A stretch of 64,000 nucleotides of DNA, taken from an uncultured Pseudomonadales bacterium. GTDB lineage: Bacteria; Pseudomonadota; Gammaproteobacteria; Pseudomonadales; Pseudohongiellaceae. A program made the position numbers and the translations under genes. The stretch spans positions 598,881 to 662,880 of the forward strand of contig CAMYOK010000002.1 in assembly GCA_947259995.1 (NCBI GenBank). The letters run 5' to 3'. The notes below the pieces were generated by a model that saw only the letters and a program-made list of their open reading frames with translations, was not told the origin of the DNA and searched no databases. Below are positions 38,933 through 64,000 of the stretch, piece by piece. Every line of letters starts with the position of its first letter. Positions within the stretch are counted from its first letter, which is position 1.

Positions 38933-40639
38933 TCAAGTAACTATTGAGTCCCAATGTGCAATCAAATGATCAATGGTACGCCAAGCCAATGCTTGAGCCG
39001 TTAAAGTAGGGTTACGGGCACCACTTGTCCCCATTACAGATGCGCCAAGAATACCAAGGTTAGTCACTTCATGAGCAAAACCGAATCGATTTGTAACGTT
39101 GTTGGCAGAATTATCTCCCATTCGAGTACCACCGTATGCATGAGTTGACGTCCCCATAGTAGACCCCAGCCCAGCTCTTACAATATCAGTCGCTCCTGCG
39201 GCTCTATACCACTCTTCCATACGATCTTGAGTAAACGCAGCAATTTTTAGCTCATTCTCTCTATAGCGCGCAGTAATGCGAATCACTGGCAAGCCAATTG
39301 AATCCTTTACATCTGGGTCAAGATCTAGATAGTTTGTATCATATGGTAAAGTAGTCTTCTGTATATAGGACACATTTGAACGGTCAGCATTTTCCATAAT
39401 AAATGCTTTCCACCGGCTACCCCAAGTAGGCGCTTTCCCAAATGTATTCATCTTGGCAGCAGCAATAGGTTTTCTGTCTGTATGAACCCATAAATTGCCT
39501 CCTCCGATGAAATCTAGATCACTATGATCAAAATTATCATCAGCCCACTCGTCAATTGCCACTCCTTGCGCTGGCAACCCGTACCAGTTATTCAAATTTT
39601 TTGGGAATAGTGCGAAAACTGGAGCACCTTGATGGTGACTAAAGTAATGTCTTCCTACTTGGCCTGCGTTATTCGCAAGCCCATTAGGAAACTCTTCGGA
39701 TTTAGACAGTAGAAGCAAACGTGTATTTTCATAAGTATGGCTAGCAAGTAAAACGACATCTGCCGGTTGGAAGAAAGTTTGTCCGCCCTTTATGTAAGTC
39801 ACACCGGTTGCCCTGCCGTTTGCATCGTTTTCTATCTTCAGAACCCGAGCATGTGTCGTAACAGTGAGGAGACCAGTCTTTACGGCCTCTGGAATAGTAG
39901 TAACTGCCGTCGACCCTTTAGCACTTACATGGCATCCTCCTCTATCACAGAAGCCGTGATAGAAACAACCTGGACGCTGGCCATATACCTCAGAGTTTAT
40001 TGCTGCAGGCGCTTGAAAAGGATGCCACCCCAAGCTTTTCGCCGCTTCGCTCATCATGTCTGTAAAGCCAGAGCCACGCAATCCTGGCATAGGATAGTCA
40101 CGGGCTCGCACAGCTTCAAACTTACTCCCCAATTTATTAAGCTTTCCTTTCACGTTACCTGCGTACCCTGATACCCCAATTGCATATTCTACGAGTTCAT
40201 AGTACGGCTCCAGATCCGTGTAAGAAATTGGCCAATCCTCCACAGTTGAGTCCTTGGGAATCCTTTCAACACCATATCGTCGAGTAGTTTCACTCACCAT
40301 TTGAAAATCCCAAGGGCTAAGTCGCCAGCTTTGTGCCCAATAATGCAAGCTAGTACCTCCTACAGCGTTCATCATAGGATGACCCGAACCTTGTGTTGCT
40401 ACACTGTTTTCATCCGGACGAACCGTAGGGATTTCTTGCTTAGCTTTACTTACCGATTGCGGCCAATCTCTAATATTATTACGCAGCTCATCAGGCGCAA
40501 AATCTCGCGTTGTAAGCCAGCTGCCCGCCTCTAAACCAACTACTTTTATACCAGCATTCACAAGAGGCAATACTGCCACACCACCAACTGCACCGAGTCC
40601 GATAACGACCACCGATGTCTTCTGTAGTTCAACTGCCAT
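38933..40639 (-). CDS. GMC-type FAD oxidoreductase (gluconate 2-dehydrogenase alpha-like)
   Basis: The start is ATG 40639 behind GGTGGGGG, giving 568 residues; GTG 40651 is an alternative. The FAD motif GLGAVGGVAVLPLVNAG sits at the N-terminus with GLEAG, and GTSLHYWAQSWRLSP, HAYGGTRMG and NPTLTAQALAWR are typical of GMC enzymes working with a small Tat-exported subunit. Such pairs oxidise sugars or other alcohols to carbonyls in the periplasm. No own signal peptide is seen; co-export with the adjacent Tat subunit is likely. The start overlaps the end of that gene by 11 bases. The substrate is unknown. It is last in the TonB receptor operon. Confidence 0.88.
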   Translation of the reverse strand: MAVELQKTSVVVIGLGAVGGVAVLPLVNAGIKVVGLEAGSWLTTRDFAPDELRNNIRDWPQSVSKAKQEIPTVRPDENSVATQGSGHPMMNAVGGTSLHYWAQSWRLSPWDFQMVSETTRRYGVERIPKDSTVEDWPISYTDLEPYYELVEYAIGVSGYAGNVKGKLNKLGSKFEAVRARDYPMPGLRGSGFTDMMSEAAKSLGWHPFQAPAAINSEVYGQRPGCFYHGFCDRGGCHVSAKGSTAVTTIPEAVKTGLLTVTTHARVLKIENDANGRATGVTYIKGGQTFFQPADVVLLASHTYENTRLLLLSKSEEFPNGLANNAGQVGRHYFSHHQGAPVFALFPKNLNNWYGLPAQGVAIDEWADDNFDHSDLDFIGGGNLWVHTDRKPIAAAKMNTFGKAPTWGSRWKAFIMENADRSNVSYIQKTTLPYDTNYLDLDPDVKDSIGLPVIRITARYRENELKIAAFTQDRMEEWYRAAGATDIVRAGLGSTMGTSTHAYGGTRMGDNSANNVTNRFGFAHEVTNLGILGASVMGTSGARNPTLTAQALAWRTIDHLIAHWDSIVT

Positions 40640-41369
40640 GTTCGCCCCCACCTACAGAAGTAGATACTTCTCGTGCAGGGTCTTTTGTGTATGGGGGCAT
40701 ATCATAAGCGGACTGACGGCTAGGTGATAAATCTGCGCCCATCCTCACATCTTCAGGTGTAGACCCCATACGTACACCTGGATAGCCCAGCATATCCCAG
40801 CCTATAAAGTCTCGGTTTCCACCATAGTATGGATCGCTGAATGCTCCTTCGATAGTATGGTTTCTTATCAAGGAAAAAAAGCTGCCACTAATACCTGAGA
40901 ATATAGATCCGGTTTGCATTGCATTTAGAATGTAATCCTGCTCGTCAGCACTGAGATTTTGGAAAGAGTTCGACTTTGTTGCATGGCAGTACATATCAAG
41001 CGCTTCGACAGCCGATGCATAGGTTTCGCGGAGATTGGCCTGCGGCCCCGCAAGTACCTTATCTATGAAATGAACTACTCTCGCTTCGTGTGCTCCTGGG
41101 CCATTTTCATCTGATGGCAAAATTCTCGACACGATCGCATCCAACACCTCGCTTTCCTTTGCCGTCAATGTTTCAAACGCCTCCCTCACAGAAATCTTCT
41201 CAACAACTGGAGCTGTAACTTGCTCCGCTGAAGCTATGTTTACAACTGAGTTCGCACCGACCCCAGCAACACTTGCACCAACACAAGCTGCTTGTTTGAT
41301 CAAATTACGTCTAGACTGAGAAACAACTTCATCTTCATTGCCCAAATTACTAATATATTTTTGAGACAT
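40629..41369 (-). CDS. Gluconate 2-dehydrogenase subunit 3-like Tat protein
   Basis: A 246-residue partner of the GMC enzyme. A twin-arginine signal (SRRNLIKQAACVGASVAG, from residue 19) is followed by the subunit 3 fold (LTAKESEVLDAIVSRILPSDENGPGAHEA, near residues 70-97). YYGGNRDFIGWDMLGYPG is a typical C-terminal motif. The role is to chaperone and export the flavin subunit and link it to an electron acceptor. There is no cytochrome subunit beside it; the c-heme of the upstream copper-monooxygenase-like protein is a possible acceptor. Confidence 0.87.
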   Translation of the reverse strand: MSQKYISNLGNEDEVVSQSRRNLIKQAACVGASVAGVGANSVVNIASAEQVTAPVVEKISVREAFETLTAKESEVLDAIVSRILPSDENGPGAHEARVVHFIDKVLAGPQANLRETYASAVEALDMYCHATKSNSFQNLSADEQDYILNAMQTGSIFSGISGSFFSLIRNHTIEGAFSDPYYGGNRDFIGWDMLGYPGVRMGSTPEDVRMGADLSPSRQSAYDMPPYTKDPAREVSTSVGGGEHGS

Positions 41370-41460
41370 TTTTTGTCCTCGAATTATTTCTTATTATTTT
41401 GATCTATCAAAAAGGTCTTCTCCTTCTCGTTAGCGGCTCCACTTAGTACGAGAAAGATCA

Positions 41461-41495
41461 CAGTGCCAGAGAACACCCTTTGCTCTCAAGCACTG
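41461..41495 (-). repeat. Intercistronic hairpin before the subunit 3 gene
   Basis: CAGTGC (41461-41466) pairs with GCACTG (41490-41495), and an inner AGAGA/TCTC pairing continues the stem. It lies in the 144-base gap between 41514 and 41369 without a T-tract, so it may affect mRNA processing rather than end transcription. Confidence 0.4.
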
Positions 41496-41513
41496 CGCCA
41501 TTTGAGATTCAAC

Positions 41514-42458
41514 CTATGATCCATTTACTTCAATTGTCACAAACTGATCGTGGTACAAGCCACCATCATCTGCCCGTCCCATCAACACATAGCTTCCAGG
41601 CTCTTTAAATGTAACTTCTGTTTCATATATTCCATCTTCAGGTACTTCTGGAGGAACCCAGTACAAACTCCATGGAGAGTTGTTTGAAGGACGTGTATCT
41701 TCCCAAACCTTTATCTGGTCTGGGCTGAAATGCACGGACTTTCCATCCACCGTTTCTGGCGCTCGATAAACTATCCATGACATATGAAGTCCATTGACCT
41801 TATTCACGGTAGAAATCATTGGAGCACGTGTTATGCGCTCCCATTCCGACTTAGGACTTCTTTCAGATGGCCCCCGTCTTGTTTTTGGATACCCATCATC
41901 CTCAACCTTTGCCACTAGCCTTATTGGCTCCCCAATACGAGCGTAACGTGTAGTTCCCTCCATGACTGTCAATGTAGGGTATTGATTCATATCTCCATCG
42001 GCCGAGCCAGCAGCCCCTCCAAACGCACCGGTTTCCGCTTGAATTAGATCTTTGTTAATTACAAAATCTGGTATTAAAGTTGCGTATGCTTTCCTAACCT
42101 CCCCATTAGGTGACTCTAAAGTCCAAATCAACTCACCATCTTCACCAAAATCTGCAGGAACATTGACAGTGAAAACAAATCTATTTCTTCTCGGTTGAAA
42201 AAACGTCGGCTGACCTCGATCCTGCACACCTGGAGAAAAGTAATTTTTTTCACCTACAGGTATGTTTGGCATTTCCTCCCAGTTCTCATTGTGATACCCA
42301 AAATAAAGATCAAACGTGCCATCTGGCATTTGCTCCCAACCTTCGTAGGCAACTTCAATATGTTGCCCAGAACTATAGTTATTTTGAGCTGTAACGTTAA
42401 ATCCTGCTGTAACAAAAATTAACCCAACTATAAATGCGCTCACTTTACATCTTTTCAT
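41514..42458 (-). CDS. Secreted protein of unknown function in the copper-monooxygenase operon
   Basis: A 314-residue protein with a signal peptide (VSAFIVGLIFVTAGFNVTAQ). The mature part is beta-rich, with VAYEGWEQMPDGTFDLYFGYHNENWEE near the N-terminus and EDGIYETEVTFKEPGSYVLMGRADDGG near the C-terminus, suggesting immunoglobulin-like folds. I do not recognise a named family. Its ATG overlaps the stop of the upstream copper/heme gene by four bases (ATGA), so the two are made together and may interact. Confidence 0.7.
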   Translation of the reverse strand: MKRCKVSAFIVGLIFVTAGFNVTAQNNYSSGQHIEVAYEGWEQMPDGTFDLYFGYHNENWEEMPNIPVGEKNYFSPGVQDRGQPTFFQPRRNRFVFTVNVPADFGEDGELIWTLESPNGEVRKAYATLIPDFVINKDLIQAETGAFGGAAGSADGDMNQYPTLTVMEGTTRYARIGEPIRLVAKVEDDGYPKTRRGPSERSPKSEWERITRAPMISTVNKVNGLHMSWIVYRAPETVDGKSVHFSPDQIKVWEDTRPSNNSPWSLYWVPPEVPEDGIYETEVTFKEPGSYVLMGRADDGGLYHDQFVTIEVNGS

Positions 42459-43897
42459 TTTTTCACTTCCCAGTATTTTATTTCAGCAGGTGTCATGCTT
42501 TCTTTATCCGCCTCAGTCAGCACGAGTGGATTCACAATTGGCATCATGCAAAGGGGACAGCCTGGAACACTATCGTTTTTACTCAAATTCAACATCTCTC
42601 TTCTAGCAGCCATCTCCTCAAAAAATTGGTCGTCAGTCATTTCTAATTGAATACCGAGATCAATAAACATATTCGTGACCGATCGATTTCCCGCTCCTTG
42701 CCAGTTTCGCGGATCTGGCACACTGGGATTGGCCTGAGAGTTATCCATATACGCAGTCGCGTGTAGGATCGTTCCTGCTGGTAATAACGGCTGGGAATGG
42801 TCATCATAGGTATAGTTAATTACCCAATTGTGGTCATAACCAACACAAGATAGGGTTTCTATATTTGCCCCCCAAATTGCTTCCAAACACATTCGTGCGC
42901 CCGGCCCATGCAAGTGAGGCTCAAATGCTGTAATTTTAGTTGGCTTTTTGAGCACAGCATAAGAATGTAGCTCGGTATCCTTGCTTCCTCCAGGGATGCT
43001 CATATTAATGCCATCACCGAGAGAAACACGTGAAATATCATACTCTGGCTCATAACCTTTGGGATGCAAATAGAACCCAATTTCGATAAACGCAGTAGTA
43101 TCAACCCCATTTGAATGTAAATGGATAGTATTGTTACTCACTGCTCGCGCATTCGCAGGTAGAAGCCTGCCAGCTTTAGGATCGAAAATATCCGGCATAC
43201 GGCCAAGCTCATGAATCGGCATATTAACCAGTGAATCTTCGATAGGGTTTCCATCGCCATCAAAGCTCTGAACAGCCCATTGCATGTGATGAACTATAAA
43301 TTGTCCGCCTACGCTGGTAGATATTTCACTACGATCCACATCATTGACTTCTCGAACCTCTACACTACGTATATATCGATCTTCATCTACAGGTATTTCA
43401 ATATCTGGAATCACTCCCCACCAGTCTGGCTGACCGGCCTTCATCACAATTGGAGCGCTACGAACGACGATATCAGGCGCGCCTCCTCTCCACACCGGCC
43501 CATCTTCAAAGGTAAGTGCCTCAGGGGCATCTTGAGGGTTGCCTCTTGGCGCTCCATTTTCCACCCATTCCGCAATCATTGCGATTTGCTCTTCCGAAAG
43601 TGACGGATTACTTTTGTAGTCCTGAATACCATTGTCTCGTTCGATATAGTAAGGCGGCATCGCCCCTGCTTTATCTTTCAACCCTGTCTTGTACATAATT
43701 AGGCCAGCGAATGGAGAAACCTCTTCAAAACTAACTAAAGGCATAGGGCCAGCACCTCCGACCCTATGACAGTTAACACACTTCTCTTGAATTATAGGTT
43801 GTATATCTTTGTGAAAAGTAAGATCTGTATCAGCAGACAAAAAACTGGAGAAAAGAAACCCAGAAAAAAGTACTGCTACTTGTTTAAGTATATTCAT
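42455..43897 (-). CDS. Secreted c-heme / type II copper monooxygenase-like fusion protein
   Basis: Start ATG 43897 is supported by a GAGGTG site and gives a signal peptide; a longer frame from 43963 adds 22 residues before it. The mature N-terminus has one c-type heme site (C40-V-N-C43-H44). The rest resembles the peptidylglycine/dopamine monooxygenase fold: H203-H204-M (HHMQW) and H261 (IHLHSNG) would form the first copper site, and H328, H330 (EPHLHG) and M410 (TNMFI) the second. Bacterial homologues with this heme-copper layout exist, but few have known substrates. CPLC near the C-terminus is an extra cysteine pair. I infer hydroxylation of a substrate in the periplasm, with electrons through the heme. 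Confidence 0.78.
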   Translation of the reverse strand: MNILKQVAVLFSGFLFSSFLSADTDLTFHKDIQPIIQEKCVNCHRVGGAGPMPLVSFEEVSPFAGLIMYKTGLKDKAGAMPPYYIERDNGIQDYKSNPSLSEEQIAMIAEWVENGAPRGNPQDAPEALTFEDGPVWRGGAPDIVVRSAPIVMKAGQPDWWGVIPDIEIPVDEDRYIRSVEVREVNDVDRSEISTSVGGQFIVHHMQWAVQSFDGDGNPIEDSLVNMPIHELGRMPDIFDPKAGRLLPANARAVSNNTIHLHSNGVDTTAFIEIGFYLHPKGYEPEYDISRVSLGDGINMSIPGGSKDTELHSYAVLKKPTKITAFEPHLHGPGARMCLEAIWGANIETLSCVGYDHNWVINYTYDDHSQPLLPAGTILHATAYMDNSQANPSVPDPRNWQGAGNRSVTNMFIDLGIQLEMTDDQFFEEMAARREMLNLSKNDSVPGCPLCMMPIVNPLVLTEADKESMTPAEIKYWEVKK

Positions 43898-44089
43898 TTC
43901 AGCACACCTCATTACCTCTAAATTTGTTTTATTCCTAAATATTTTTCCCACTGCAGAGCTCATCTGAACCTCCTGCGAATAGAATTAGTAACTACATTTC
44001 CCCCTATAAAACCAATATCCATATCGACAACCATTTTTGACATTTTCAGTCGAATTATAATTTTGAAATTTCACAACCCGATAGTTGCA

Positions 44090-44129
44090 GCGCATACCTA
44101 AGGTCACCTAGCTGACCCTAGGCATGCGC
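44090..44129 (-). repeat. Strong 17-bp intercistronic hairpin after the TonB receptor gene
   Basis: The arms are GCGCATACCTAAGGTCA (44090-44106) and TGACCCTAGGCATGCGC (44113-44129), as written on the plus strand. In minus-strand RNA all 17 pairs form, two of them as G-U wobbles. In plus-strand RNA these two would be A-C mismatches. It starts 18 bases after the receptor stop codon and has no T-tract behind it. Confidence 0.7.
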
Positions 44130-44147
44130 TACGCGCCCTAGTACATA

Positions 44148-47090
44148 CTAGAACCCTGGAGCCCAATCTACGGACATGTAAAACTGACGACCCCACGGAA
44201 CAGAAAGACGAGTTTCGAAACCACCTAAAACTCCCAGTCGTTGCGGTCGCTTATCGAACACATTACTTACACCAAAACTAAGATTAAATTCGCTATCAAA
44301 GTACTGATCTAATAACAGGCCATAGCGTGCATTGACAATATGCTCCCCTTTAATGTTGCGAGGTGTTCCTATAGCACCGCCTGGACGTATATCTGCGTAG
44401 TAATCGAACACCTTCGCATCAAACTCTATGTCGTGCCAATAACTAGCAGAGACCGATGCGCTTTGATTTCCGCGATACCAACTAAGTCGTAAGTTCGCTT
44501 TTAGCTCAGGAAGGGGCGGAACAATATCAGTGGCATCGTTTTGTTTGCCTAGTGCATCAATGACGCCTCCATTCAAGCCTTCATACCTGTAATCTGTATA
44601 GTATGTCGCCTGTAAGTTAGCGCTAAACGTACCCAAATCATTCGTGTCGAATGTATACGTTATATTGCTATCAAAAAGATCGATCCAGACCGAACTAATG
44701 TTGGCCGCTTGTCGATACACCTTCTTGACTTCGCCAGTTGGAAAGCGGTCAATTTTGTTAGAACCCGGGCCTGCTGGAGGTAAACTTGCTAGCCATGCAT
44801 CAGCCGCATTGCGTGTCGCTGAACCTGGCGTAGAATCATAGCTATCAACGGATGAACCAATCGCGGAAAGCATCTGCTTAAACTGATGATCAACGGTATC
44901 AACATAGGACAATGACAATATTCTGTCCTCGTATTCGATTTCTTGGTAATCAACCGAGAAGGTTAAGCCATCTAGAAAATTTTCAGGCTCCCATGTAAAT
45001 CCTACATTTTGTATCACCGAACTTTCCGGCTGTAGCGATGGGTTTCCAGAAGAACAAGATATACCTCCAGCAAGATTTGTCCCGGTAATTTCATCTCGAC
45101 CAGTGTACGTTTCAGCACAGCTTTGGTCTGGAATAAACGGGCGCGCATCGAACGGAGTGGGTGCGAGAAAACTTTCCCCCCAAGACCCACGTATTGCTAA
45201 AGTGGGCAGTGCCTCCCAACGTAGCGACACTTTTGGAGTTGTCGCCTTCAAGCCAAAAGTCTTGAAGCTTTCATGGCGAACAGCTACTTGCATATCTAGC
45301 GTCTCTAGAATTGGAACTTGAAGCTCTGTGAATACTGCATTCACCTCTGAACGATAAGTCTCATCTTCGGGTACAGGTGAAAGATAGGAGGAACCGTTAT
45401 ATTGAATTCCGGGATGCTCCGTCATATTCGGATCAGCAAACCTGCGAACCCAAAGATCTCGATATTGATAACCTGCTGCTAACTGCACCACACCTGTAGG
45501 CAGATCAAACAGCTCACCACTAACTACTGATTCCAATACTTCCATTTCCTCTTCTTCAGAAACGTGTCCAGATTCATACACCCAGAGCCAGTCAGTCAGC
45601 TCTTGTGAATTGTCTGTTACTCCTTGCACAAAATACGGTGATCTGGGGTCTGCAGAACCAAAAGGGTTGAAGTATTCATTGCCATTTGGTCCACCCTTAC
45701 CAGCGAGAGCGAGTTGGAGTTTTCCGGTATGTATATAGTTGCGGTCTGACATCTGCATAGAAGTCTGGTGTGAGTAGGTTGTATAGCCTGTCCAGCTACC
45801 AACTATGTCGTAGTCCCCAGTAAATACTGCTCTATTAAGAGATTCGCGATTGTTTCTTAGATAATCACCAGCATCCGTTAAAATTGATGGCTTATGCGTA
45901 TACCCGAGAGCAAACACATGCCAAGACCATGGCACCACATCGAATCCGTAGGGGTTAGCTGGGTGATCAGCACGAATCAAGGCGACGTCTCTATCATTCC
46001 CTCCGTTCGAAGACACAGGAAGACCGCGACCATTCCTAGCATTGTAGTTATTCAATAATGTCGCAGAGAGTCGCAACCAATCTGTTGCGTCAAGACTGAT
46101 GTTGTTATACAAGCTATAATCTTCAGAAGCTGGTCCATATGGATTGTGAATACTCCACTCATAAGCACATTGTCCCGACGCCAATTGATGTCCTGCCGGC
46201 ATTGCGCCAGCACCTTGCCCATGCTGAGGAAATCCTCCATTAAAAGTTTCACAACTTGGATCAGTAAGTATATCTCCAGTTAAAGATCCGCCATGGTGAC
46301 CGTACATATTAATTCCATCGCTTGCTCCGAGCACCTGCTTGAAGGACCCAGGGTTTCCTGAAGGAGCGGTGGTAGCAGAAAAATCCATTTCTCTTGACCG
46401 CTCGTACATCATTAAATCTGTTCTTTTTCTGAATTCGAATGCTCCAGTATAATTTATGCCGTTATCAAAATTTACGCCCCACATCGCCGCGTTAGTAAAA
46501 TCTTCCATGGCTCCATCTTCTGTGCGCTGGTAGTAACTACGCGCTTTGAATCCTTGAAAATCCTTTTCGAGAAGCACATTCACCACACCTGCTACAGCGT
46601 CGGATCCATATGTTGCTGACCCTCCGTCCAAAACTACTTCAAGACGGCTGATTGCAATCTCTGGCACATTTCTGTTCATGTTAGATATCAAAGAGCGCTG
46701 TCCATCTATCAGCATCAAGGTTGAATTGCCACCTAAGCCCCGTAGGTTGAAACTCGCCCCAACTCCGGACTGCCCACCAGGGGCCAAAACATTTTTTACA
46801 ATGTCTGCCGCCTGCGTGTATGTCATATCACGTATATACTGCGAGATATTTGGGGCACCAGATTCCTGAAGATCCTCCTGCGTTACCGTGTCGACTGGAG
46901 AATTCTGGGCAAATGCGCTATTTCGAATATAGGACCCAGTTACAACTACTTCCTCTACATCTGTATCTTGCTGTGCAGACACCAAAGTTGGTATTGCTAA
47001 TGAAGTGACAATACAGAGCTTAATTAGGTTTCGGAGCTTCCCTAGAGGACTCATAGAAACCGACAAGGGAAAGACACTTATTATTTTCAT
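44148..47090 (-). CDS. TonB-dependent outer-membrane receptor
   Basis: A 980-residue receptor for active uptake of an unknown substrate. A signal peptide (LIKLCIVTSLAIPTLVSAQQ) is followed by the TonB box/plug start (VEEVVVTGSYIR), the plug domain with LRGLGGNSTLMLIDGQR and LDGGSATYGSDAVAGVVNVLLEK split around residues 110-170, and a 22-strand barrel ending in an aromatic C-terminus (VDWAPGF). Siderophore-specific features are not recognisable; this plug type is common in carbohydrate and aromatic or peptide uptake receptors. ATG 47090 has GGGAG 12 bases upstream; ATG 47054 is possible. It is probably first in the operon with the copper/heme and GMC genes. Confidence 0.93.
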   Translation of the reverse strand: MKIISVFPLSVSMSPLGKLRNLIKLCIVTSLAIPTLVSAQQDTDVEEVVVTGSYIRNSAFAQNSPVDTVTQEDLQESGAPNISQYIRDMTYTQAADIVKNVLAPGGQSGVGASFNLRGLGGNSTLMLIDGQRSLISNMNRNVPEIAISRLEVVLDGGSATYGSDAVAGVVNVLLEKDFQGFKARSYYQRTEDGAMEDFTNAAMWGVNFDNGINYTGAFEFRKRTDLMMYERSREMDFSATTAPSGNPGSFKQVLGASDGINMYGHHGGSLTGDILTDPSCETFNGGFPQHGQGAGAMPAGHQLASGQCAYEWSIHNPYGPASEDYSLYNNISLDATDWLRLSATLLNNYNARNGRGLPVSSNGGNDRDVALIRADHPANPYGFDVVPWSWHVFALGYTHKPSILTDAGDYLRNNRESLNRAVFTGDYDIVGSWTGYTTYSHQTSMQMSDRNYIHTGKLQLALAGKGGPNGNEYFNPFGSADPRSPYFVQGVTDNSQELTDWLWVYESGHVSEEEEMEVLESVVSGELFDLPTGVVQLAAGYQYRDLWVRRFADPNMTEHPGIQYNGSSYLSPVPEDETYRSEVNAVFTELQVPILETLDMQVAVRHESFKTFGLKATTPKVSLRWEALPTLAIRGSWGESFLAPTPFDARPFIPDQSCAETYTGRDEITGTNLAGGISCSSGNPSLQPESSVIQNVGFTWEPENFLDGLTFSVDYQEIEYEDRILSLSYVDTVDHQFKQMLSAIGSSVDSYDSTPGSATRNAADAWLASLPPAGPGSNKIDRFPTGEVKKVYRQAANISSVWIDLFDSNITYTFDTNDLGTFSANLQATYYTDYRYEGLNGGVIDALGKQNDATDIVPPLPELKANLRLSWYRGNQSASVSASYWHDIEFDAKVFDYYADIRPGGAIGTPRNIKGEHIVNARYGLLLDQYFDSEFNLSFGVSNVFDKRPQRLGVLGGFETRLSVPWGRQFYMSVDWAPGF

Positions 47091-47438: not shown

Positions 47439-47475
47439 CACCTTGGAGACATGAAGTCTCCAAGGTGCTTTTTTT
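47439..47475 (+). terminator. Plus-strand intrinsic terminator without an assigned gene
   Basis: A perfect 12-bp stem, CACCTTGGAGAC (47439-47450) and GTCTCCAAGGTG (47456-47467), has a 5-base loop and is followed by C and seven T residues. Its orientation is plus, while both neighbouring genes are on the minus strand, and the minus side lacks a T-tract. The 383-base gap (47091-47473) shows no plus-strand protein gene. Confidence 0.8.
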
Positions 47476-48628
47476 ACCATACTTTATTTGGTTCCCGAGG
47501 TGCGACCTGCTCAGGTTCAGCCTCTCGGAAGCTCTGAACTGTCCTTGGCGCTCTTGAGAGAGTTCGATATTCTTTCGGCGTAATACCGTGCTTATCTTTA
47601 AATGCCTTATGGAAAGAAGATAGAGAGGTATACCCAGTGTCCATACCGATACTAAAAATAGAGTCATCCGAAGTAACCAACAGTTCTTCAGCTTCTTTTA
47701 TCCGGTATTTATTTAAAAAATGGCTAAAATTGTTGTATTTTAAAACTCGATTTATGACAGATCTCAACCGATATTCTTGAATCCCCAAGTTTTCTGCCAG
47801 CTGACCTATAGTCAACCCGTTCTTACGATAAGGCTTCTCGCGGCCCATGAATTCTAGCAACTTGTCTTTCACTGCAAAGTCTTTAGGGTCTATTACATTC
47901 TGAGTATTTGGATTCAAAGAATTATTAGAAAACGACTTCGGCGATATCTCTGCGTTAAACCCATTGATTCTAAAAAGCATAAGATTCACCGCAAGAATAG
48001 AAGGGAATATAAATACATTCCGAACTACTTTGACAGCCTCCCCCGTTTCATAGAGCGACTCGAAACCCATATTCACAAACACATCAAAGGATACATCAAT
48101 GCAGACCCAGAGCCAGAAAGTACCCAAAGTAGCAACGAATAGCACTCTCAAACTTCTACGAGATTCAATTAAGTCTTGCCTATATTCCAGCACGGCTAGA
48201 ACTAAAGTATGTATATAAATTCCAATATTAATAATTTGAGGAACAATATGAAAAACTATATAGATCCCTAAATTAGATAAAAGATCTGGATTAGTAAGGT
48301 AGAAAGACTGACCTACCGCTTTCAGAAGAAAATATGTAGCACATATACCCCAAGCGTAAAGTGGCACTCTATCTTCGTGATGAAACAGAACAAACGCCAT
48401 TATCCAGATAACGCCTGGTATTAGATATGTAACTCTCCCTAGGAAGAAGCGCATCCATGTTACTTCTGAAGGGCCTGTCAAAATTACATATAGGTATACT
48501 ACCGTACTCAATGAGAACACTAATAGTAATTTCCCTATATAAGAGTGTCTTTGAAATATGAATACTGCAATTGCTAGAAAAAATGCTTGAGAGATTGATA
48601 AAAGCAAGGCTATTTCTGATATTTGCAT
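47474..48628 (-). CDS. AraC-family regulator with seven-helix membrane domain
   Basis: A 384-residue protein. Residues 1-225 contain about seven transmembrane helices. Residues ~260-365 form the AraC DNA-binding domain with two helix-turn-helix motifs (LTIGQLAENLGIQEYRLRSVINRVL and SIFSIGMDTGYTSLSSFHKAFKDKHGITPKEYR). A charged tail follows. Membrane AraC proteins of this kind usually control a neighbouring transport or catabolic locus; here the TonB receptor operon lies downstream on the same strand and copC-like genes are divergent. It has an own start region with no overlap to other genes. Confidence 0.88.
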   Translation of the reverse strand: MQISEIALLLSISQAFFLAIAVFIFQRHSYIGKLLLVFSLSTVVYLYVILTGPSEVTWMRFFLGRVTYLIPGVIWIMAFVLFHHEDRVPLYAWGICATYFLLKAVGQSFYLTNPDLLSNLGIYIVFHIVPQIINIGIYIHTLVLAVLEYRQDLIESRRSLRVLFVATLGTFWLWVCIDVSFDVFVNMGFESLYETGEAVKVVRNVFIFPSILAVNLMLFRINGFNAEISPKSFSNNSLNPNTQNVIDPKDFAVKDKLLEFMGREKPYRKNGLTIGQLAENLGIQEYRLRSVINRVLKYNNFSHFLNKYRIKEAEELLVTSDDSIFSIGMDTGYTSLSSFHKAFKDKHGITPKEYRTLSRAPRTVQSFREAEPEQVAPREPNKVW

Positions 48629-48999: not shown

Positions 49000-49464
49000 A
49001 TGAAATCACATAATATACTAAATTCTTTGTTAGCTCTGATCATTCTAGTTCTATGCAGTGACGCAATTGCGCAGCATTCCCACGGCAGACGAAATACCAT
49101 TGAATTAGAATATGAATCTAACCCAACTCATGACGAAGTACTAAAGACCTCTCCCGAAGATATATTGCTTAGATTCAACGACTACGTTCGGCTAGTTAAA
49201 TTGACGCTAAGCGCAGAAGACACTTTAAACGTACCTATAGATTTCGAGTTTTCCAATAGTTATAGCAAGGTATTCATACAAGAACTTCCAAAGCTAAGGC
49301 AGGCAGCCTACTACACCGTTGAATGGGCTGCGTTGAATCCAGAGAACATCATTGTTTATGGGTTTTTCTGTTTCTCCTTCGGCCCGGACGCTCGTGTTCC
49401 CACGACGATAATAAACGCTAGAAATTTTCCAGATAATCCAATTCAGAGAGAAAATCCTTTCTAG
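49000..49464 (+). CDS. CopC-like exported protein with degenerate copper site
   Basis: A 154-residue protein with a signal peptide (SLLALIILVLCSDAIAQ). The mature part has the CopC pattern: H near the N-terminus, LKTSPEDILLRFNDYVRLVKLTL, and a final Greek-key strand (YGFFCFSFG). The usual Asp-Gly-His copper(II) motif before the last strand is replaced by PENI, so the classical site is incomplete. The HSHG sequence just after the cleavage point might bind copper instead. No Shine-Dalgarno sequence is visible before the ATG. Its closeness to a copper monooxygenase-like operon suggests a copper-handling role (inference). Confidence 0.65.
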   Translation: MKSHNILNSLLALIILVLCSDAIAQHSHGRRNTIELEYESNPTHDEVLKTSPEDILLRFNDYVRLVKLTLSAEDTLNVPIDFEFSNSYSKVFIQELPKLRQAAYYTVEWAALNPENIIVYGFFCFSFGPDARVPTTIINARNFPDNPIQRENPF

Positions 49465-49537: not shown

Positions 49538-50122
49538 ATGCACTCAGATAAATGCTGTAAATTCATCCAATCCATCCAAAAGTGGAGTATGTTATTACTA
49601 ATCTGTTTGAGTTTTTCTTTAACCGCTCAGAACAACATAAGTATATCCAGCAACGCTTTCGAGCATAATAGCGATATCCCTTACCAGTATTCAGCATATG
49701 GAGACAATGTGTCACCCGACATCAGCTGGGACAACTTACCAGTGAACACAGTTGAATTAGCCTTAATATTGGAAGATCCAATCGTTGATATGCCCCAGCC
49801 TTTCGTACACTGGGTAGCCTACAACATACCTGTTACTGCCAGCGGCCTCCCGGCTGGGCTCCCAACTGATACTGAAGTTGCTGGACATTCCGAACTAGAA
49901 GGAATGATTAATGGACTCAACGGAACAAACAGATCTGGTTACTTTGGCCCCCGTCCACCAGCAGATGGCAAAGTACACAAATACCATTTCACGATCTACG
50001 CTCTTGGGTCTAAACTTAACCTTCCTCACGGACTGACGAAAGAGACGCTTCTAAACGCGATAGAAGGACACGTATTAGCATCTGGTACGCTAACAGGTAA
50101 CTACGAGCAGCAAACAGACTAA
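49538..50122 (+). CDS. YbhB/YbcL-family PEBP protein, exported
   Basis: A 194-residue protein of the phosphatidylethanolamine-binding-like fold. After a signal peptide (WSMLLLICLSFSLTAQ) come the family motifs PYQYSAYGDNVSPDISW, LILEDPIVDMPQPFVHWVAYNIP and GYFGPRPPADGKVHKYHFTIYAL, which form the anion-binding pocket. Function in bacteria is mostly unknown. AAAGGAG lies at a good distance before the ATG. It follows the copC-like gene by 73 bases and is probably cotranscribed. Confidence 0.88.
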   Translation: MHSDKCCKFIQSIQKWSMLLLICLSFSLTAQNNISISSNAFEHNSDIPYQYSAYGDNVSPDISWDNLPVNTVELALILEDPIVDMPQPFVHWVAYNIPVTASGLPAGLPTDTEVAGHSELEGMINGLNGTNRSGYFGPRPPADGKVHKYHFTIYALGSKLNLPHGLTKETLLNAIEGHVLASGTLTGNYEQQTD

Positions 50123-52651: not shown

Positions 52652-55615
52652 TTAGAAATCGTAAACCAAACGAGCATAGATCGAGCGACCCATTGGGTCT
52701 TGTAACTCACCAATCACACCAGCAAAGTCTGGAGTACGCTGGGCCTGGCGATCGAACAAGTTACGAGAACCAACACTCACACCCATTTCGCCACCATACA
52801 AGCTGATGCCACGATAAGTGTACGCTAGGTCAAAGTCAGTCCATGCCTTTATCTGACCACCAACGATGGTTGGGTTAGGGTTAGTATTTGCGAATAGCGC
52901 AACAATCCCTGTGTAGTTGGTGCCATCCCAATCAACCTCGTCGACATAATGCACCGTGCCTGTCACTGCATGATTACCCAAAGTCCAACCTAAACGCAGG
53001 TTGGCTTTGATGTCAGGCACAGCAGGGGCAGTCGCTGTAAGCAAATTGGTTGAGCCAGTACCATCAACAACTGGACCATCCTCTGTGTCTTGGAACAAGA
53101 ACTCATCCATAATGGTGGCTTGCAAGTTAAGACGCAGATTACCCCAATCGCCCAAGCTTATGCGGTAATTACCTTGTACATCATAGGCCGTCACCTTAAC
53201 ACTTTGCGCGTTAACACTGCCTGGCGCTGAAACCTGCAAGATAGTGCCAAGGTCATTCGGATCACGAATGATGTCTGGGTTACTTAAACCGCTAGCAAGC
53301 CATGCTCTGAGTTGATCCTCAGATGGACGCCCAGCAGCACCGACACCATTCCCTGTGAAACCAGACCATTCTTTGAATGCCGCGAAGTCATTATTCATGA
53401 CCGTCTGGCCTGAAATTCCGACGATGCGGTTTTTAAAGTCTGTTTCATTCCAAGTCACAGAGACATCGAAATCACCGAATGCTATATCAAAGCCAAGCTG
53501 TTTCGATGTTGATGTTTCATTCTCTAGATCAGGGTTGCCACCCGAACAGGCCGTAGTGAACGCTGAGAAAGGTGAGAATCGATCCGTCACCGTGGACAAA
53601 CCACAGCTCACAGGGTCAAGAAGATCCGTGAGAGACGGCGCGATAAAGGCGTCGCCCGTTGTGGCTCGAAGGTTCAACCAATCCGTTGGGGCCCATGACA
53701 CACCGAACTTGGGATCAGTAGACTTTTGACCCGTGCTGAAATCCTCGTGACGAGCGGCGATTTCGACTTCTAGGTTCTGCAATACTGGCACAGCCAACTC
53801 GAAGAAGTAGGCGTTCACGTCTCGACTACCTGTGGTAATCGTTTCAGGGAATGGGCTACCGATCCATGTATCACCGCGAATCTCAATGATAGATGGCGTG
53901 TTGGTGTATTTGTCTTCACGCAACTGATAACCAACCGCAGCACCGATTGGCCCACCAGGGAGCTCAAAACCACCCAGCGGGATCTCACCATTCAAAACGA
54001 TGTCGACAGTTTTGAGCCAGGTCTCTTCCATTTCCTTAGCACGGCCGGCAATAGCCTCCATCACATGGATAGAGTTGTTGTCGGCTTCGTTTACTACGAA
54101 GAATGGGTTATAACAAGCGTCACGATCGTTGATCACATCACAACGCACGCCTTGCTTCATGGCTTCGATGTCGAAGTTCTGCGTTGACGCGTAACGCCAT
54201 CTCTGGGTGCTCTGACCGTAGGCTGCCATGCCCTCCCAGCCTTCAATAAACGGCACTCTAAAGTCTGCCTGCAATACAACGCGGCTATTGAAATCTACGC
54301 TGCCTGCAAGGTTGTCTCCATCAGGCGAAGTTCCTGCGCCACGAGTGTGAGTCTTGTTAATCGGGCGAAGGGTTCGCGCTCTAACGTCCTCATGCAGTAG
54401 GACGCCGTTATCGGTAGTGCCAGAGACAAGATAGTCCATCAAACCATCGTTGTTTAGATCTTGTGTGCCACGATCAGGAATTCCGTCGCCATTGGCATCG
54501 AAACCATAGAGCTGCTGGCCTGCCGAGTTCGTCGCAAGGAAGGGGTTGCCGGGTAGCTCACCACGCAAGGCTCCTAGCTCTGCAATTCGTGAGTTTCCAG
54601 GGTTGGACGTAGACGTGTAGGTCATCTGCGCCATGCGCGATCTGAACCCTTGCAAACTAAGAGTTAAATCCTCGTTGACATCCCAAGTGGCGTTTGCAAA
54701 CAAAGAGCCAGTATCCGTTGGTTCTCTATAGCTACGAGTATCACCAAAGTCGAAGAAGCAAGTAGAGCCAACGAGCATACCGTAGGGATTGTTGACTTCA
54801 TTGGCTTTGTAGGACTGACGTTCAGAAGCTGGTGCACAGTTAGGGTCTGGTCTGTTAGTTGAGGCACCCGTGTATTGACCATTCTCGTCACGCACTGGAG
54901 CAACATAGTTACCGGGAGAGTTCGATGAATAGTTCAAACCAGCTTGGGCTAAGTAGGGACGCTCATCCCAACCAAGACGACTGTTAGAACGATACTGCCC
55001 TGCAAGCACGACATCGATGTCACCTACTTCGCCACCCCATAGCATTTGCACCGAGTGTTCGTCATAGTCGCCACGCGAATCCTGCTCACCATAGGTCTCG
55101 ATCTTAAGACCTTCATAAGATTTATAAGGCACGAAGTTGACAACCCCTGCCACGGCCTCGTTGCCGTAAAGTGCCGCCGCGCCATCAGCCACAATATCAA
55201 GACGTTGAATGGCGATTGTGGGGATCATCACGTTGACGTTCTCATCGGCCACGCGCTTACCATCAAGCAAGGTCAAAGTAGAACGAGGGCCAAGACCGCG
55301 CAAATCAATTGATGAGTTGGCTGAACTTGTACCCTGAATAGTATTGGTAATTGAAGACGATGGACCGCCCACGAACGACATGTTCTGGATGACTTCACCG
55401 ATATTGAGAGTGCCTTCGTCGACCAAGTCGTCAGCGCTTAACTGAGTTACTTGCGAGGCCTGTGTGAAACCTTCACTACGACGAATATAAGAGCCAGTAA
55501 CTACAACCTCTTCCACTTCATCCTGCTGAGCATAGCTTGGACCTGCCAGCGGTATCAATGACAAGGAAATAGCCGTGTACAGCAGACTACGTTTTTGTGG
55601 GACTTTAAAGCGCAT
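52652..55615 (-). CDS. TonB-dependent outer-membrane receptor (second)
   Basis: A 987-residue receptor. The signal peptide ends ...LAGPSYAQQ and is followed by VEEVVVTGSYIRRSEGF, the plug with SSIDLRGLGPRSTLTLLDGKR and VADGAAALYGNEAVAGVVNFVPYK, and a barrel ending YARLVYDF. A calcium-like loop (FDANGDGIPDRGTQDLNNDGLMD) occurs in an extracellular part, which is unusual but known for such receptors. Substrate is unknown. It is monocistronic; the adjacent glycosyltransferase and the 159-residue protein are separated from it by terminator or gap. It shares plug style with the receptor at 44-47 kb without being a close copy. Confidence 0.92.
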   Translation of the reverse strand: MRFKVPQKRSLLYTAISLSLIPLAGPSYAQQDEVEEVVVTGSYIRRSEGFTQASQVTQLSADDLVDEGTLNIGEVIQNMSFVGGPSSSITNTIQGTSSANSSIDLRGLGPRSTLTLLDGKRVADENVNVMIPTIAIQRLDIVADGAAALYGNEAVAGVVNFVPYKSYEGLKIETYGEQDSRGDYDEHSVQMLWGGEVGDIDVVLAGQYRSNSRLGWDERPYLAQAGLNYSSNSPGNYVAPVRDENGQYTGASTNRPDPNCAPASERQSYKANEVNNPYGMLVGSTCFFDFGDTRSYREPTDTGSLFANATWDVNEDLTLSLQGFRSRMAQMTYTSTSNPGNSRIAELGALRGELPGNPFLATNSAGQQLYGFDANGDGIPDRGTQDLNNDGLMDYLVSGTTDNGVLLHEDVRARTLRPINKTHTRGAGTSPDGDNLAGSVDFNSRVVLQADFRVPFIEGWEGMAAYGQSTQRWRYASTQNFDIEAMKQGVRCDVINDRDACYNPFFVVNEADNNSIHVMEAIAGRAKEMEETWLKTVDIVLNGEIPLGGFELPGGPIGAAVGYQLREDKYTNTPSIIEIRGDTWIGSPFPETITTGSRDVNAYFFELAVPVLQNLEVEIAARHEDFSTGQKSTDPKFGVSWAPTDWLNLRATTGDAFIAPSLTDLLDPVSCGLSTVTDRFSPFSAFTTACSGGNPDLENETSTSKQLGFDIAFGDFDVSVTWNETDFKNRIVGISGQTVMNNDFAAFKEWSGFTGNGVGAAGRPSEDQLRAWLASGLSNPDIIRDPNDLGTILQVSAPGSVNAQSVKVTAYDVQGNYRISLGDWGNLRLNLQATIMDEFLFQDTEDGPVVDGTGSTNLLTATAPAVPDIKANLRLGWTLGNHAVTGTVHYVDEVDWDGTNYTGIVALFANTNPNPTIVGGQIKAWTDFDLAYTYRGISLYGGEMGVSVGSRNLFDRQAQRTPDFAGVIGELQDPMGRSIYARLVYDF

Positions 55616-61661: not shown

Positions 61662-63233
61662 TTATATCAGAACAATTTCTATCGTATTTTTCGCGCCGAG
61701 CTTCTCAAGAAAGCGGCGTTGTTTCTCATTGATTATTAATGTCAAAGTATTGTCTTTACTCGCCATATTATTCGCTTCGCGATTGAAAAAATCGACAGCC
61801 GATTGGTCGATATGCGTGGTGTACTGCAGATCAACGGTAAGATTTTTCCCTGCCGCATTCTGAAACCGCTCAGTCAAATGTGATACCGAAGCATAAAACA
61901 ATGCGCCTTTTACTTTTAACACAGAGCCTGCATTGCTCTGCTCTTCTTTAATATCGAGCTGACTAATTCGAACGAGAAAAACGCTAACCGATAGAAAAAC
62001 AGCAATTTCGATTCCTATAGCAAGACCGAAAAACAATATGCCAATAAAGGTACACAGGTAAATCACTAGTTCAGAGCGCACCAAAGCATAATGGGTAATA
62101 TCTTGCCACTTGATCATATCCATACCCACAATGAACAAGGTTCCAGCCATTGCCGCCATCGGCATATAGGTCAATATCGGGCCTAAGAAAGTAATGAGTA
62201 TAAGAACAAAGACACCCGCCACAATCCCTGACAAGGGAGTCGTCGCACCAAGCCCCTGATTCACTTTAGTGCGATTAAAACTTCCTGAACCTGCAAACGC
62301 TGAAAAGAATGGAGCGAGAATACTGGACACCCCTTGAGCATACACCTCTTTGTCCAAATCGATATGCTGATCCGTTTCCATTTTCAACTCCCGCACAATC
62401 ACCAAAGACTGTGCCAATCCAATGAAAGCAATCGCAATGGCGTAGGGAATCAAATTCAAGCTAGTCATTAAGTACTCAATATTCACGGTAGGAATGGCAA
62501 AGGGCAGCCACTCCAAAGGCATGCGCCCTAAATATTCTAGCTCTGTCTGTGTTTGAGGCCAGATGAACGCAACTAGCAAACCACAGACATAGCCCGCACA
62601 CACCGCAATGATGATGAAATAGCGCGGCGAAAAACGCCTGCTGACATACCCTGCAACGATGGTACAAACGCCAATCGCTAGGCTATAGGGGTTCACCAGA
62701 GAACCCGCATCACTAACAATGACGTAAATTTTTTCATAGAAAAATGTCGTCCTAAATGTCGATAGATCTAAGATACTGTCCAGCGAAGCCATGATTATTA
62801 AGAATCCAGCTCCTGCCGAAATACCTGAAATGGCCGCAGGCGAAAGGTACTGGAAGACTCGCGCGCCTCTGAGCAACCAAAACAGCAACTGAATAATTCC
62901 GACCATCATGCATAGTAGAAACACATAATCGATGTAAATAGGACTGCCCCGCCCGGCTAATGGCAGCACCGCCGTTCCTATTAGAATTGCCACGGCGGTG
63001 TTCGGCCCGCTCATCATCGAAGACGACCCTAGCAAGCTACTAAACAAAGTCACAAATATGGCACAGTACAAACCATACTCTGGCTGCAAACCTGCCAAAT
63101 AGGCATAGGTAATGCCCTGCGGTATAACGAGTATGGCCCCGACGAATCCGGCAAATATTTCCGTGCGCCAATTGCTGAGCTTATGGCCCCACGCAAAAGA
63201 AGGCGTCGCTTCTTTGAGAAGTTTGGCAATCAA
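61662..63233 (-). CDS. SulP-family anion transporter with STAS domain
   Basis: A 523-residue inner-membrane transporter of the SulP/SLC26 family that carries sulfate, bicarbonate or similar anions. The N-terminal motif is IFAGFVGAILVIPQGITYAYLAGLQPEYGLY, followed by SSMMSGPNTAVA, about twelve helices, and a C-terminal STAS domain (about residues 430-523; VDLQYTTHIDQSAVDFF). The start is TTG at 63233, overlapping the stop codon of the upstream cytochrome gene (TTGA); the ribosome-binding site is weak, so translation probably depends on the upstream gene. This coupling to a TsdA-like cytochrome suggests a sulfur oxyanion as substrate. Confidence 0.87.
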   Translation of the reverse strand: MIAKLLKEATPSFAWGHKLSNWRTEIFAGFVGAILVIPQGITYAYLAGLQPEYGLYCAIFVTLFSSLLGSSSMMSGPNTAVAILIGTAVLPLAGRGSPIYIDYVFLLCMMVGIIQLLFWLLRGARVFQYLSPAAISGISAGAGFLIIMASLDSILDLSTFRTTFFYEKIYVIVSDAGSLVNPYSLAIGVCTIVAGYVSRRFSPRYFIIIAVCAGYVCGLLVAFIWPQTQTELEYLGRMPLEWLPFAIPTVNIEYLMTSLNLIPYAIAIAFIGLAQSLVIVRELKMETDQHIDLDKEVYAQGVSSILAPFFSAFAGSGSFNRTKVNQGLGATTPLSGIVAGVFVLILITFLGPILTYMPMAAMAGTLFIVGMDMIKWQDITHYALVRSELVIYLCTFIGILFFGLAIGIEIAVFLSVSVFLVRISQLDIKEEQSNAGSVLKVKGALFYASVSHLTERFQNAAGKNLTVDLQYTTHIDQSAVDFFNREANNMASKDNTLTLIINEKQRRFLEKLGAKNTIEIVLI

Positions 63234-64000
63234 TTGATTAAGTGTTCCAGTAATTTGAGAAACTTGCTGTCATTAGGATCAGCAGGCCGGTATTGCAAAT
63301 TAAGATAGGCCGACACATCGAGCGCCTGTTGATGACTTAGAGACTTAGCATTGCCCAATGGCATATTGGCCCAGATAAACCCAGCTGCCATTTGAATTCC
63401 ATTCATCCCCGCGCCCTTATTATACGAGTCGCTACCCCATACGGCGGGCATCTCACCTAGGCCTTCGCCTTGCTGTCCGTGACAGTTTGCACACTGTGCA
63501 AGGTACACGGCGCGCCCATTCGCCGGATTAGGGTCATACCCGGTATCGGGCAAGGTTGGCACTCCACGACCTTCAGGCTCCGCTCCTAACACCTGCCCCT
63601 GGGACAAATAGGTGACATAGGCAGCGATCGCCAATACTTCGGGTGCGTCCTCTGTCGGCATGATGCCGTCCATGCTATACAAGAAGCATTCACGAATGCG
63701 AAGTCCGATACCGTTGCGTTTGCCATTTTTGGCACGCCACTTTGGATACATCCCCGCCACATTCAATGGCAGAGCGTCATTTTGTGTGCCTGCTTGTAAG
63801 TGGCAATTGCTACAGTTTAGGCTATTGCCCACATATCGACTGGCATGTTCTTGTGTATTGGTAACGATCTCGTAGCCATAAACGACATTGGAGTAGTAGT
63901 CATCGAGGAAGGGTTCATTAAGAAGTTGCGCAATGCTCGGTTGGGCTTGCTGCGCATGGCTTGCGGAGAGGGCAAGAGAGAACAACACTCCACACCTAAT
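63230..64000 (-). CDS. Diheme cytochrome c, TsdA-like (5' end cut by window)
   Basis: About 256 residues are visible; the frame is open to the window end, so the true start, probably a few codons upstream with the rest of the signal peptide (LFSLALSASHAQQA), is missing. Two c-heme sites are seen, CSNCH and CANCH. The first is in a context very like thiosulfate dehydrogenase TsdA: LNCSNCHLQAGTQ, then RIRECFLYSMDG, where the Cys could be the unusual axial ligand. The second heme is followed by FIWANMPLG with a Met. TsdA oxidises thiosulfate to tetrathionate, or works in reverse. Assignment to another SoxA-like cytochrome is possible. Confidence 0.75.
   Translation of the reverse strand: MRCGVLFSLALSASHAQQAQPSIAQLLNEPFLDDYYSNVVYGYEIVTNTQEHASRYVGNSLNCSNCHLQAGTQNDALPLNVAGMYPKWRAKNGKRNGIGLRIRECFLYSMDGIMPTEDAPEVLAIAAYVTYLSQGQVLGAEPEGRGVPTLPDTGYDPNPANGRAVYLAQCANCHGQQGEGLGEMPAVWGSDSYNKGAGMNGIQMAAGFIWANMPLGNAKSLSHQQALDVSAYLNLQYRPADPNDSKFLKLLEHLIN

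Follow-up and report, generated by a model that had tools for sequence, protein, structure and literature searches.

A predicted heme c-copper monooxygenase paired with a secreted protein and multiplied in one bacterial family, beside a GMC dehydrogenase cassette

Genes and features of the locus

The locus lies in a stretch of 64,000 nucleotides (here called the window) from a genome of 3.46 Mb. Five genes on the minus strand encode a TonB-dependent receptor, a predicted heme c-copper monooxygenase (CuMO), a secreted protein of 314 residues (U314), a member of the gluconate 2-dehydrogenase subunit 3 family (Gdh3) and a GMC FAD dehydrogenase (GMC) (Table 1). All five were found as open frames where the first-pass annotation had placed them, and both the 11-base overlap of GMC with Gdh3 and the ATGA shared by U314 and CuMO (42455-42458) were seen in the sequence. 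The description of the genes as separated by short gaps or overlaps was right for these two junctions, but the gap between Gdh3 and U314 is 144 bases and that between CuMO and the TonB gene is 184 or 250 bases, depending on the start codon. The calls of GMC, Gluconate_2-dh3 and TonB barrel and Plug domains were each upheld over their cut-offs, as was the Tat signal of Gdh3. Since the sequence AGGAGG, a strong Shine-Dalgarno site, stands just 5' of the ATG at 43963, a CuMO of 502 residues appears as likely as one of 480.

Past the TonB gene, the upstream order within the window is the AraC-type regulator, the divergent CopC-like gene, the PEBP gene and a glucose/sorbosone dehydrogenase gene. 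Between the genes for AraC and TonB, the plus strand has a strong hairpin with a T-run (47439-47467), and another TonB receptor, which clusters with the first, is encoded at 52652-55615.

Table 1. Position of the genes in the window
Feature	Position	Strand	Remark
GMC FAD dehydrogenase	38933-40639	minus	GMC_oxred_N and C over cut-off
Gdh3 (gluconate 2-dehydrogenase subunit 3 family)	40629-41369	minus	Gluconate_2-dh3 104.7 bits, Tat signal
U314, secreted 314-residue protein	41514-42458	minus	no family match
CuMO, predicted heme c-copper monooxygenase, 480 residues	42455-43897	minus	longer frame starts at 43963
TonB-dependent receptor, 980 residues	44148-47090	minus	TonB barrel and Plug over cut-off
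AraC-type regulator	47474-48628	minus	six hydrophobic segments, then C-terminal HTH (Pfam and hydropathy)
CopC-like secreted protein	49000-49464	plus	divergent from the module; PF04234 29.9 bits, cut-off 23.3
PEBP (YbhB-like) protein	49538-50122	plus	family match

CuMO and its secreted partner

The fold of CuMO was recognised in a model predicted from 27 sequences, with a middling pLDDT of 72.6. This model has the two-domain fold of PHM (Foldseek E 1.5e-8; VIA Z 15.1, rmsd 3.9, 245 aligned), and the top 26 rows by Z were all PHM or dopamine beta-hydroxylase, the next row falling to 7.4. The window protein gave no match to the Pfam copper monooxygenase models at E 0.01, its family scan returned only cytochrome c matches, all sub-threshold, and a sequence search of solved structures gave no convincing relative (best E 0.28, a cytochrome c). 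The candidate ligands of CuH (His-His, His) are H203, H204 and H259, and those of CuM (His-X-His, Met) are H328, H330 and M410, paired with those of PHM through their order and spacing rather than by residue-level superposition. Each of the six was invariant in 27/27 aligned relatives and the copper domain of the model matches PHM, in agreement with the earlier remark that all six copper ligands are apparently present, M410 lying within a stretch of pLDDT below 50. We also considered H278 as the third CuH ligand and dropped it; H259 was chosen because it is His in 27/27 sequences (H278 in 25/27), corresponds to a His in the alignment with the long forms described below and gives the better PHM spacing. 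The heme c motif of the N-terminal domain (C40, C43, H44) was present in 26/27 aligned proteins, the remaining row being a gap, and M80 was conserved in 27/27.

M314 is a CuM ligand of PHM, and one PDB title among the structure matches of the CuMO model names an M314I mutant. According to a study of PHM, CuH is bound by H107, H108 and H172, and in the citrate form of a mutant copper is coordinated by H242 and H244 (PMC6123673). CuMO is predicted to be a PHM-type dicopper monooxygenase with an N-terminal heme c domain. It shares with PHM and dopamine beta-hydroxylase the two-domain beta fold (Z 15, on the model) and the order and spacing of the His-His, His, His-X-His and Met ligands, but identity is only 10-15%, and CuMO differs in its N-terminal heme c, its downstream partner U314, its bacterial origin, its strong expansion and the absence of a Pfam match at E 0.01.

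Longer relatives of 567-659 residues, which join redoxin, cytochrome c and copper monooxygenase parts, occur in the same bacterial family. Their heme c and copper domains are homologous to those of CuMO (hhalign probability 100, E 6.8e-56), whereas the redoxin domain, present in both of the two scanned, is extra. They were seen at L113 10810-14440 (two in tandem), L114, L112 11334-13037, L115 and L116 865-2616, with a split version in L111. The split copy reaches PF03712 over the cut-off (33.4 bits) and the long protein of L113 matches it below the cut-off; the split copper domain found no relative when searched against solved structures. Outside the family, with at most the four best candidates scored per genome, the copper domain was matched, by model positions, in 4/368 other genomes of the class and 1/397 other genomes of the phylum draw. 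All these matches lie in open frames of at least 627 codons, those of the class genomes being likened to the long forms by the copper domain match and not by the redoxin part. The remaining matches outside the family (34 class-draw and 54 phylum-draw genomes) cover the cytochrome part only.

U314 had no Pfam or NCBIfam match at E 0.01, and no convincing relative among solved structures by sequence (best E 1.1). Its model (pLDDT 74.5, again middling) gave many Ig-like domain matches at Z about 8; this likeness may be only a common arrangement, from which no function follows. A role as a His-based copper chaperone was considered and rejected, as no His stands among the invariant or nearly invariant columns.

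The two genes belong together as the conserved core unit. U314 was the next gene downstream on the same strand in 93 of 101 CuMO loci, a set made non-redundant over the C-terminal 250 residues of CuMO and with contig ends included; of the eight misses, four lie where a contig or locus stops, and four are real exceptions (the first copy of L127, L135, L157 and L168). In a second list from separate searches, made of the best 108 CuMO rows and the best 127 U314 rows of longer lists, U314 stood downstream of CuMO in 83/90. The median gap between the two genes was 11 bases; frame starts were set mechanically, and the most negative gap is an artefact of this. Furthermore, the distance matrices of the two proteins correlated with r 0.87 over 93 pairs (permutation maximum 0.21) and the nearest neighbour was the same for both in 63/93 pairs, which points to a pair that was mostly duplicated together.

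U314 is not only a subunit of CuMO, because 14 of the 15 U314 loci fetched from 29 unpaired rows hold no CuMO; the exception is L108, the view of L099 is limited by a contig edge, and some of the 29 rows have a weaker CuMO neighbour outside the list used. Of the 15 loci, 13 carry an AraC gene from the cluster of the window regulator, 6 a TonB gene and 7 a CopC-like gene. U314 may therefore have a role of its own, perhaps in sensing with membrane AraC proteins. These homologues (L096-L110) come from the same family, mostly with the AraC gene of the same cluster.

The module is lineage-restricted. U314 was found in 37/95 genomes of five genera, all in one family, and CuMO in 40/95 genomes of seven genera, the three additional ones among these 40 having much weaker matches. 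Among 369 genomes drawn from the class, with at most six best candidates scored per genome, U314 was found in its own genome and in 0/368 others. A plasmid search with CuMO gave no match. The best 80 named relatives of CuMO belong to Pseudohongiella, OM182, Gammaproteobacteria, Pseudomonadales, Proteobacteria and SAR86-labelled records, mostly metagenome-assembled genomes together with strain LSUCC0112. Within the family including Pseudohongiella and OM182 the pair is strongly expanded: CuMO match rows numbered 39 in G054, 29 in G048, 22 in G012, 21 in G042 and 16 in the genome of the window, these rows including distant and long forms and many copies without a checked U314 neighbour. In G054 (6.6 Mb), merging by eye reduced the 39 rows to about 33 places. 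We found no description of the CuMO-U314 module among the open-access papers listed in literature searches. A genomic survey covering Pseudohongiellaceae reports P450-type oxygenases in the HTCC2089/Pseudohongiellaceae group and regards gene annotation as challenging, and its main text does not contain the words copper and peptidylglycine (PMC8371827).

The GMC-Gdh3 cassette and other neighbours

The fructose dehydrogenase and FAD-glucose dehydrogenase complexes consist of a GMC large subunit, a Tat-exported small subunit and a cytochrome c subunit. The window GMC matched fructose dehydrogenase over its full length (E 1.2e-36), its closest solved relatives being the large subunits of fructose and glucose dehydrogenase, and it carries the GxGxxG motif for FAD and the pair His500/Asn543, which we take to be catalytic. 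Gdh3, which had no sequence match among solved chains at E 0.01, is encoded beside it with its Tat signal and would be its small subunit and export partner. The locus differs from the known complexes in having no separate heme c gene beside GMC, as CuMO and a frame at 63230-64000 are the only ones of at least 90 codons in the window with CxxCH. The latter, on the minus strand with two CxxCH motifs, is cut by the window end, lies far from the module and is possibly a c-type cytochrome.

GMC-Gdh3 lay within five genes of CuMO in only two of the 101 distinct loci, the window and L116, and the three GMC and three Gdh3 matches among 141 loci (2200 frames) came from the window and from L037 and L116, which represent one and the same contig. 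L116, from genome G011 of the same genus, carries the same gene set as the window with a CuMO 79% identical and, beside the module, a TonB relative 81% identical to the window receptor; that it does so argues that the set is more than chance. In G009, also of this genus, GMC-Gdh3-PEBP is followed at a contig edge by the end of U314 (84% identity over 58 residues), with CuMO not in view; these two genomes and the window were the only places where the CuMO module adjoined GMC-Gdh3. In G008, which has a CuMO orthologue 80% identical and a single Gdh3 match, CuMO-U314 and GMC-Gdh3-PEBP are on different contigs.

Elsewhere in the genus the cassette usually stood with a PEBP gene and away from CuMO. 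A Gdh3 homologue of at least 50% identity was present in 14/14 own-genus genomes searched, and GMC-Gdh3-PEBP without CuMO in view was seen in G004, G008 and a second copy of the own genome (spans of 16-19 kb), in G002 and G006 (3.7 kb) and in G013, where the view ends right after PEBP. The own second copy, with divergent PEBP, lies at L207 5548-8810 (contig C2, about 12.5-15.8 kb), with no CuMO in 19 kb. PEBP stands directly beside Gdh3-GMC in the other copies of the genus that were opened, whereas the CuMO module separates PEBP from Gdh3 in the window and is placed outside PEBP in L116. The window copies are the most diverged of nine, with GMC 76-79%, Gdh3 51-56% and PEBP 54-61% identical to the rest, while the other eight GMC copies are 84-98% identical among themselves. 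We read GMC-Gdh3 as a second unit that was recruited, or merely placed, beside the window copy of CuMO.

The first-pass interpretation was sustained in part, but the idea of one five-gene system was not supported as stated. CuMO-U314 recurs as a unit, and in the window it is adjoined by a TonB receptor and by an FAD dehydrogenase pair with a Tat signal; the proximity of GMC-Gdh3 to CuMO was confined to the few loci named. In the neighbourhood survey that the first-pass annotation had proposed, the GMC link failed outside one genus, and the CuMO-U314 link passed, within one family only and not in unrelated genomes.

Other neighbours were counted within five genes of CuMO, in single-linkage blastp clusters named from representatives (SURF1 and CopC by Pfam). 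A CopC-like cluster was near 43/101 CuMO loci, an AraC cluster near 20/101, and TonB receptors of the window's cluster near 16/101, or 17/101 including a second plug-bearing cluster, so that for most CuMO-U314 pairs neither cluster supplies a receptor within this distance. In addition, SURF1 was near 24/101 and a cluster which we take to be PNPase-like near 31/101; these neighbours show that several copies keep a conserved place in the chromosome, a point against an island devoted to catabolism alone. The window CopC-like protein is one of two PF04234 matches in its genome. It resembles CopC in exceeding the PF04234 cut-off, but the match is weak, no sequence relative was found among solved structures at 0.1, and 34/86 members of the cluster fit a pattern with a His-rich start (e.g. 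AQHSHG). Such a start, after the predicted signal peptide, was noted in the CopC-like proteins of L058 6004-6540, L116 2707-3174 and the window. The AraC regulator, of which 12 listed relatives have six to eight hydrophobic segments by the same crude count, is likely a membrane-bound one-component sensor.

Proposed role of the locus

We consider it fairly probable that the locus is composite, with CuMO-U314 as a periplasmic hydroxylase core, multiplied in the family, and GMC-Gdh3 as a separate cassette beside this copy. At its PHM-type dicopper site, CuMO would most likely introduce a single oxygen atom at a C-H bond of a small molecule. Its electrons would most likely come not from ascorbate but by way of the N-terminal heme c of the enzyme itself, and this heme could accept them from a periplasmic cytochrome c. 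U314 would most likely be a secreted partner which binds the enzyme or presents the substrate. For the window copy, the AraC regulator would provide control, the TonB receptor uptake and the CopC-like protein copper handling. GMC-Gdh3 would be a Tat-exported FDH-type dehydrogenase, a genus-wide cassette that came to adjoin the window copy, and it may oxidise the alcohol made by CuMO.

The arrangement had been proposed to be one dedicated two-step catabolic operon, in which a compound is taken up, hydroxylated by CuMO and then, as the new alcohol, oxidised by GMC-Gdh3. This is plausible, and we hold it only tentatively. The full set is kept in L116, the cassette meets the end of U314 in G009, the differing position of PEBP in the window and L116 indicates a neighbourhood that was reshaped but kept, and the divergence of the window GMC from the eight other copies fits a specialised enzyme. 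Against it stand the 2/101 loci, the separate contigs of G008, and a promoter-like site (10 of 12) in the gap before Gdh3, a sign of little weight since the region has 13 such sites and its shuffles 23.8. Alternatively, the CuMO module may have landed next to the cassette by chance in an ancestor, their proximity then being without functional significance; we judge this somewhat less likely than not. It agrees with the copies of GMC-Gdh3-PEBP without CuMO in G004, G008, the own second copy, G002 and G006, but the units have stayed side by side in two distinct arrangements, and the window copy is additional and diverged.

Two other explanations concern CuMO itself. If the CuMO-U314 copies served the cell's own envelope or respiration, in oxygen or copper handling, rather than catabolism, the recurrent housekeeping neighbours (SURF1, PNPase-like and CopC-like) would be expected; we think this unlikely, as diverse exogenous substrates would better account for the large copy numbers and for the TonB and AraC genes near other copies. 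Chemistry of the PHM-PAL kind, in which hydroxylation by CuMO at a carbon adjacent to nitrogen is followed by cleavage by a lyase (dealkylation or amidation), is very improbable. An NHL propeller cluster was near 8/101 CuMO loci (for example L139 14712-15785 and L157 7961-9031), and the PAL domain of PAM is found among solved structures related to the L139 protein (3fvz, E 2e-28), but other NHL propellers score higher than PAL and no NHL gene is present at the window locus.

The composite reading leaves the two-gene module as the principal result: lineage-restricted and strongly expanded, it is a new architecture in a known enzyme superfamily with a new partner family, and the five-gene pathway, as a local extension of it, is less supported. 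PHM-type copper hydroxylases are best known from animals. In this one bacterial family there are up to about 33 CuMO relatives per genome, among the four genomes counted, the closest ones nearly always with U314. If active, they would give a large capacity for C-H oxidation outside the cytoplasm, by a PHM-like enzyme perhaps free of the need for ascorbate. A bolder proposal, which we regard as a long shot, is that Pseudohongiellaceae and OM182 diversified heme-wired copper hydroxylases, each with its own U314, on different dissolved organics, and that the window copy formed a closed redox loop from the FDH-type dehydrogenase to the heme c of CuMO. In such a loop the electrons of alcohol oxidation would return to the hydroxylase, coupling hydroxylation with oxidation. 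The pair is also carried (L121) by LSUCC0112, a cultured strain placed by its authors close to the OM182 clade (PMC6606908), and is therefore open to testing.
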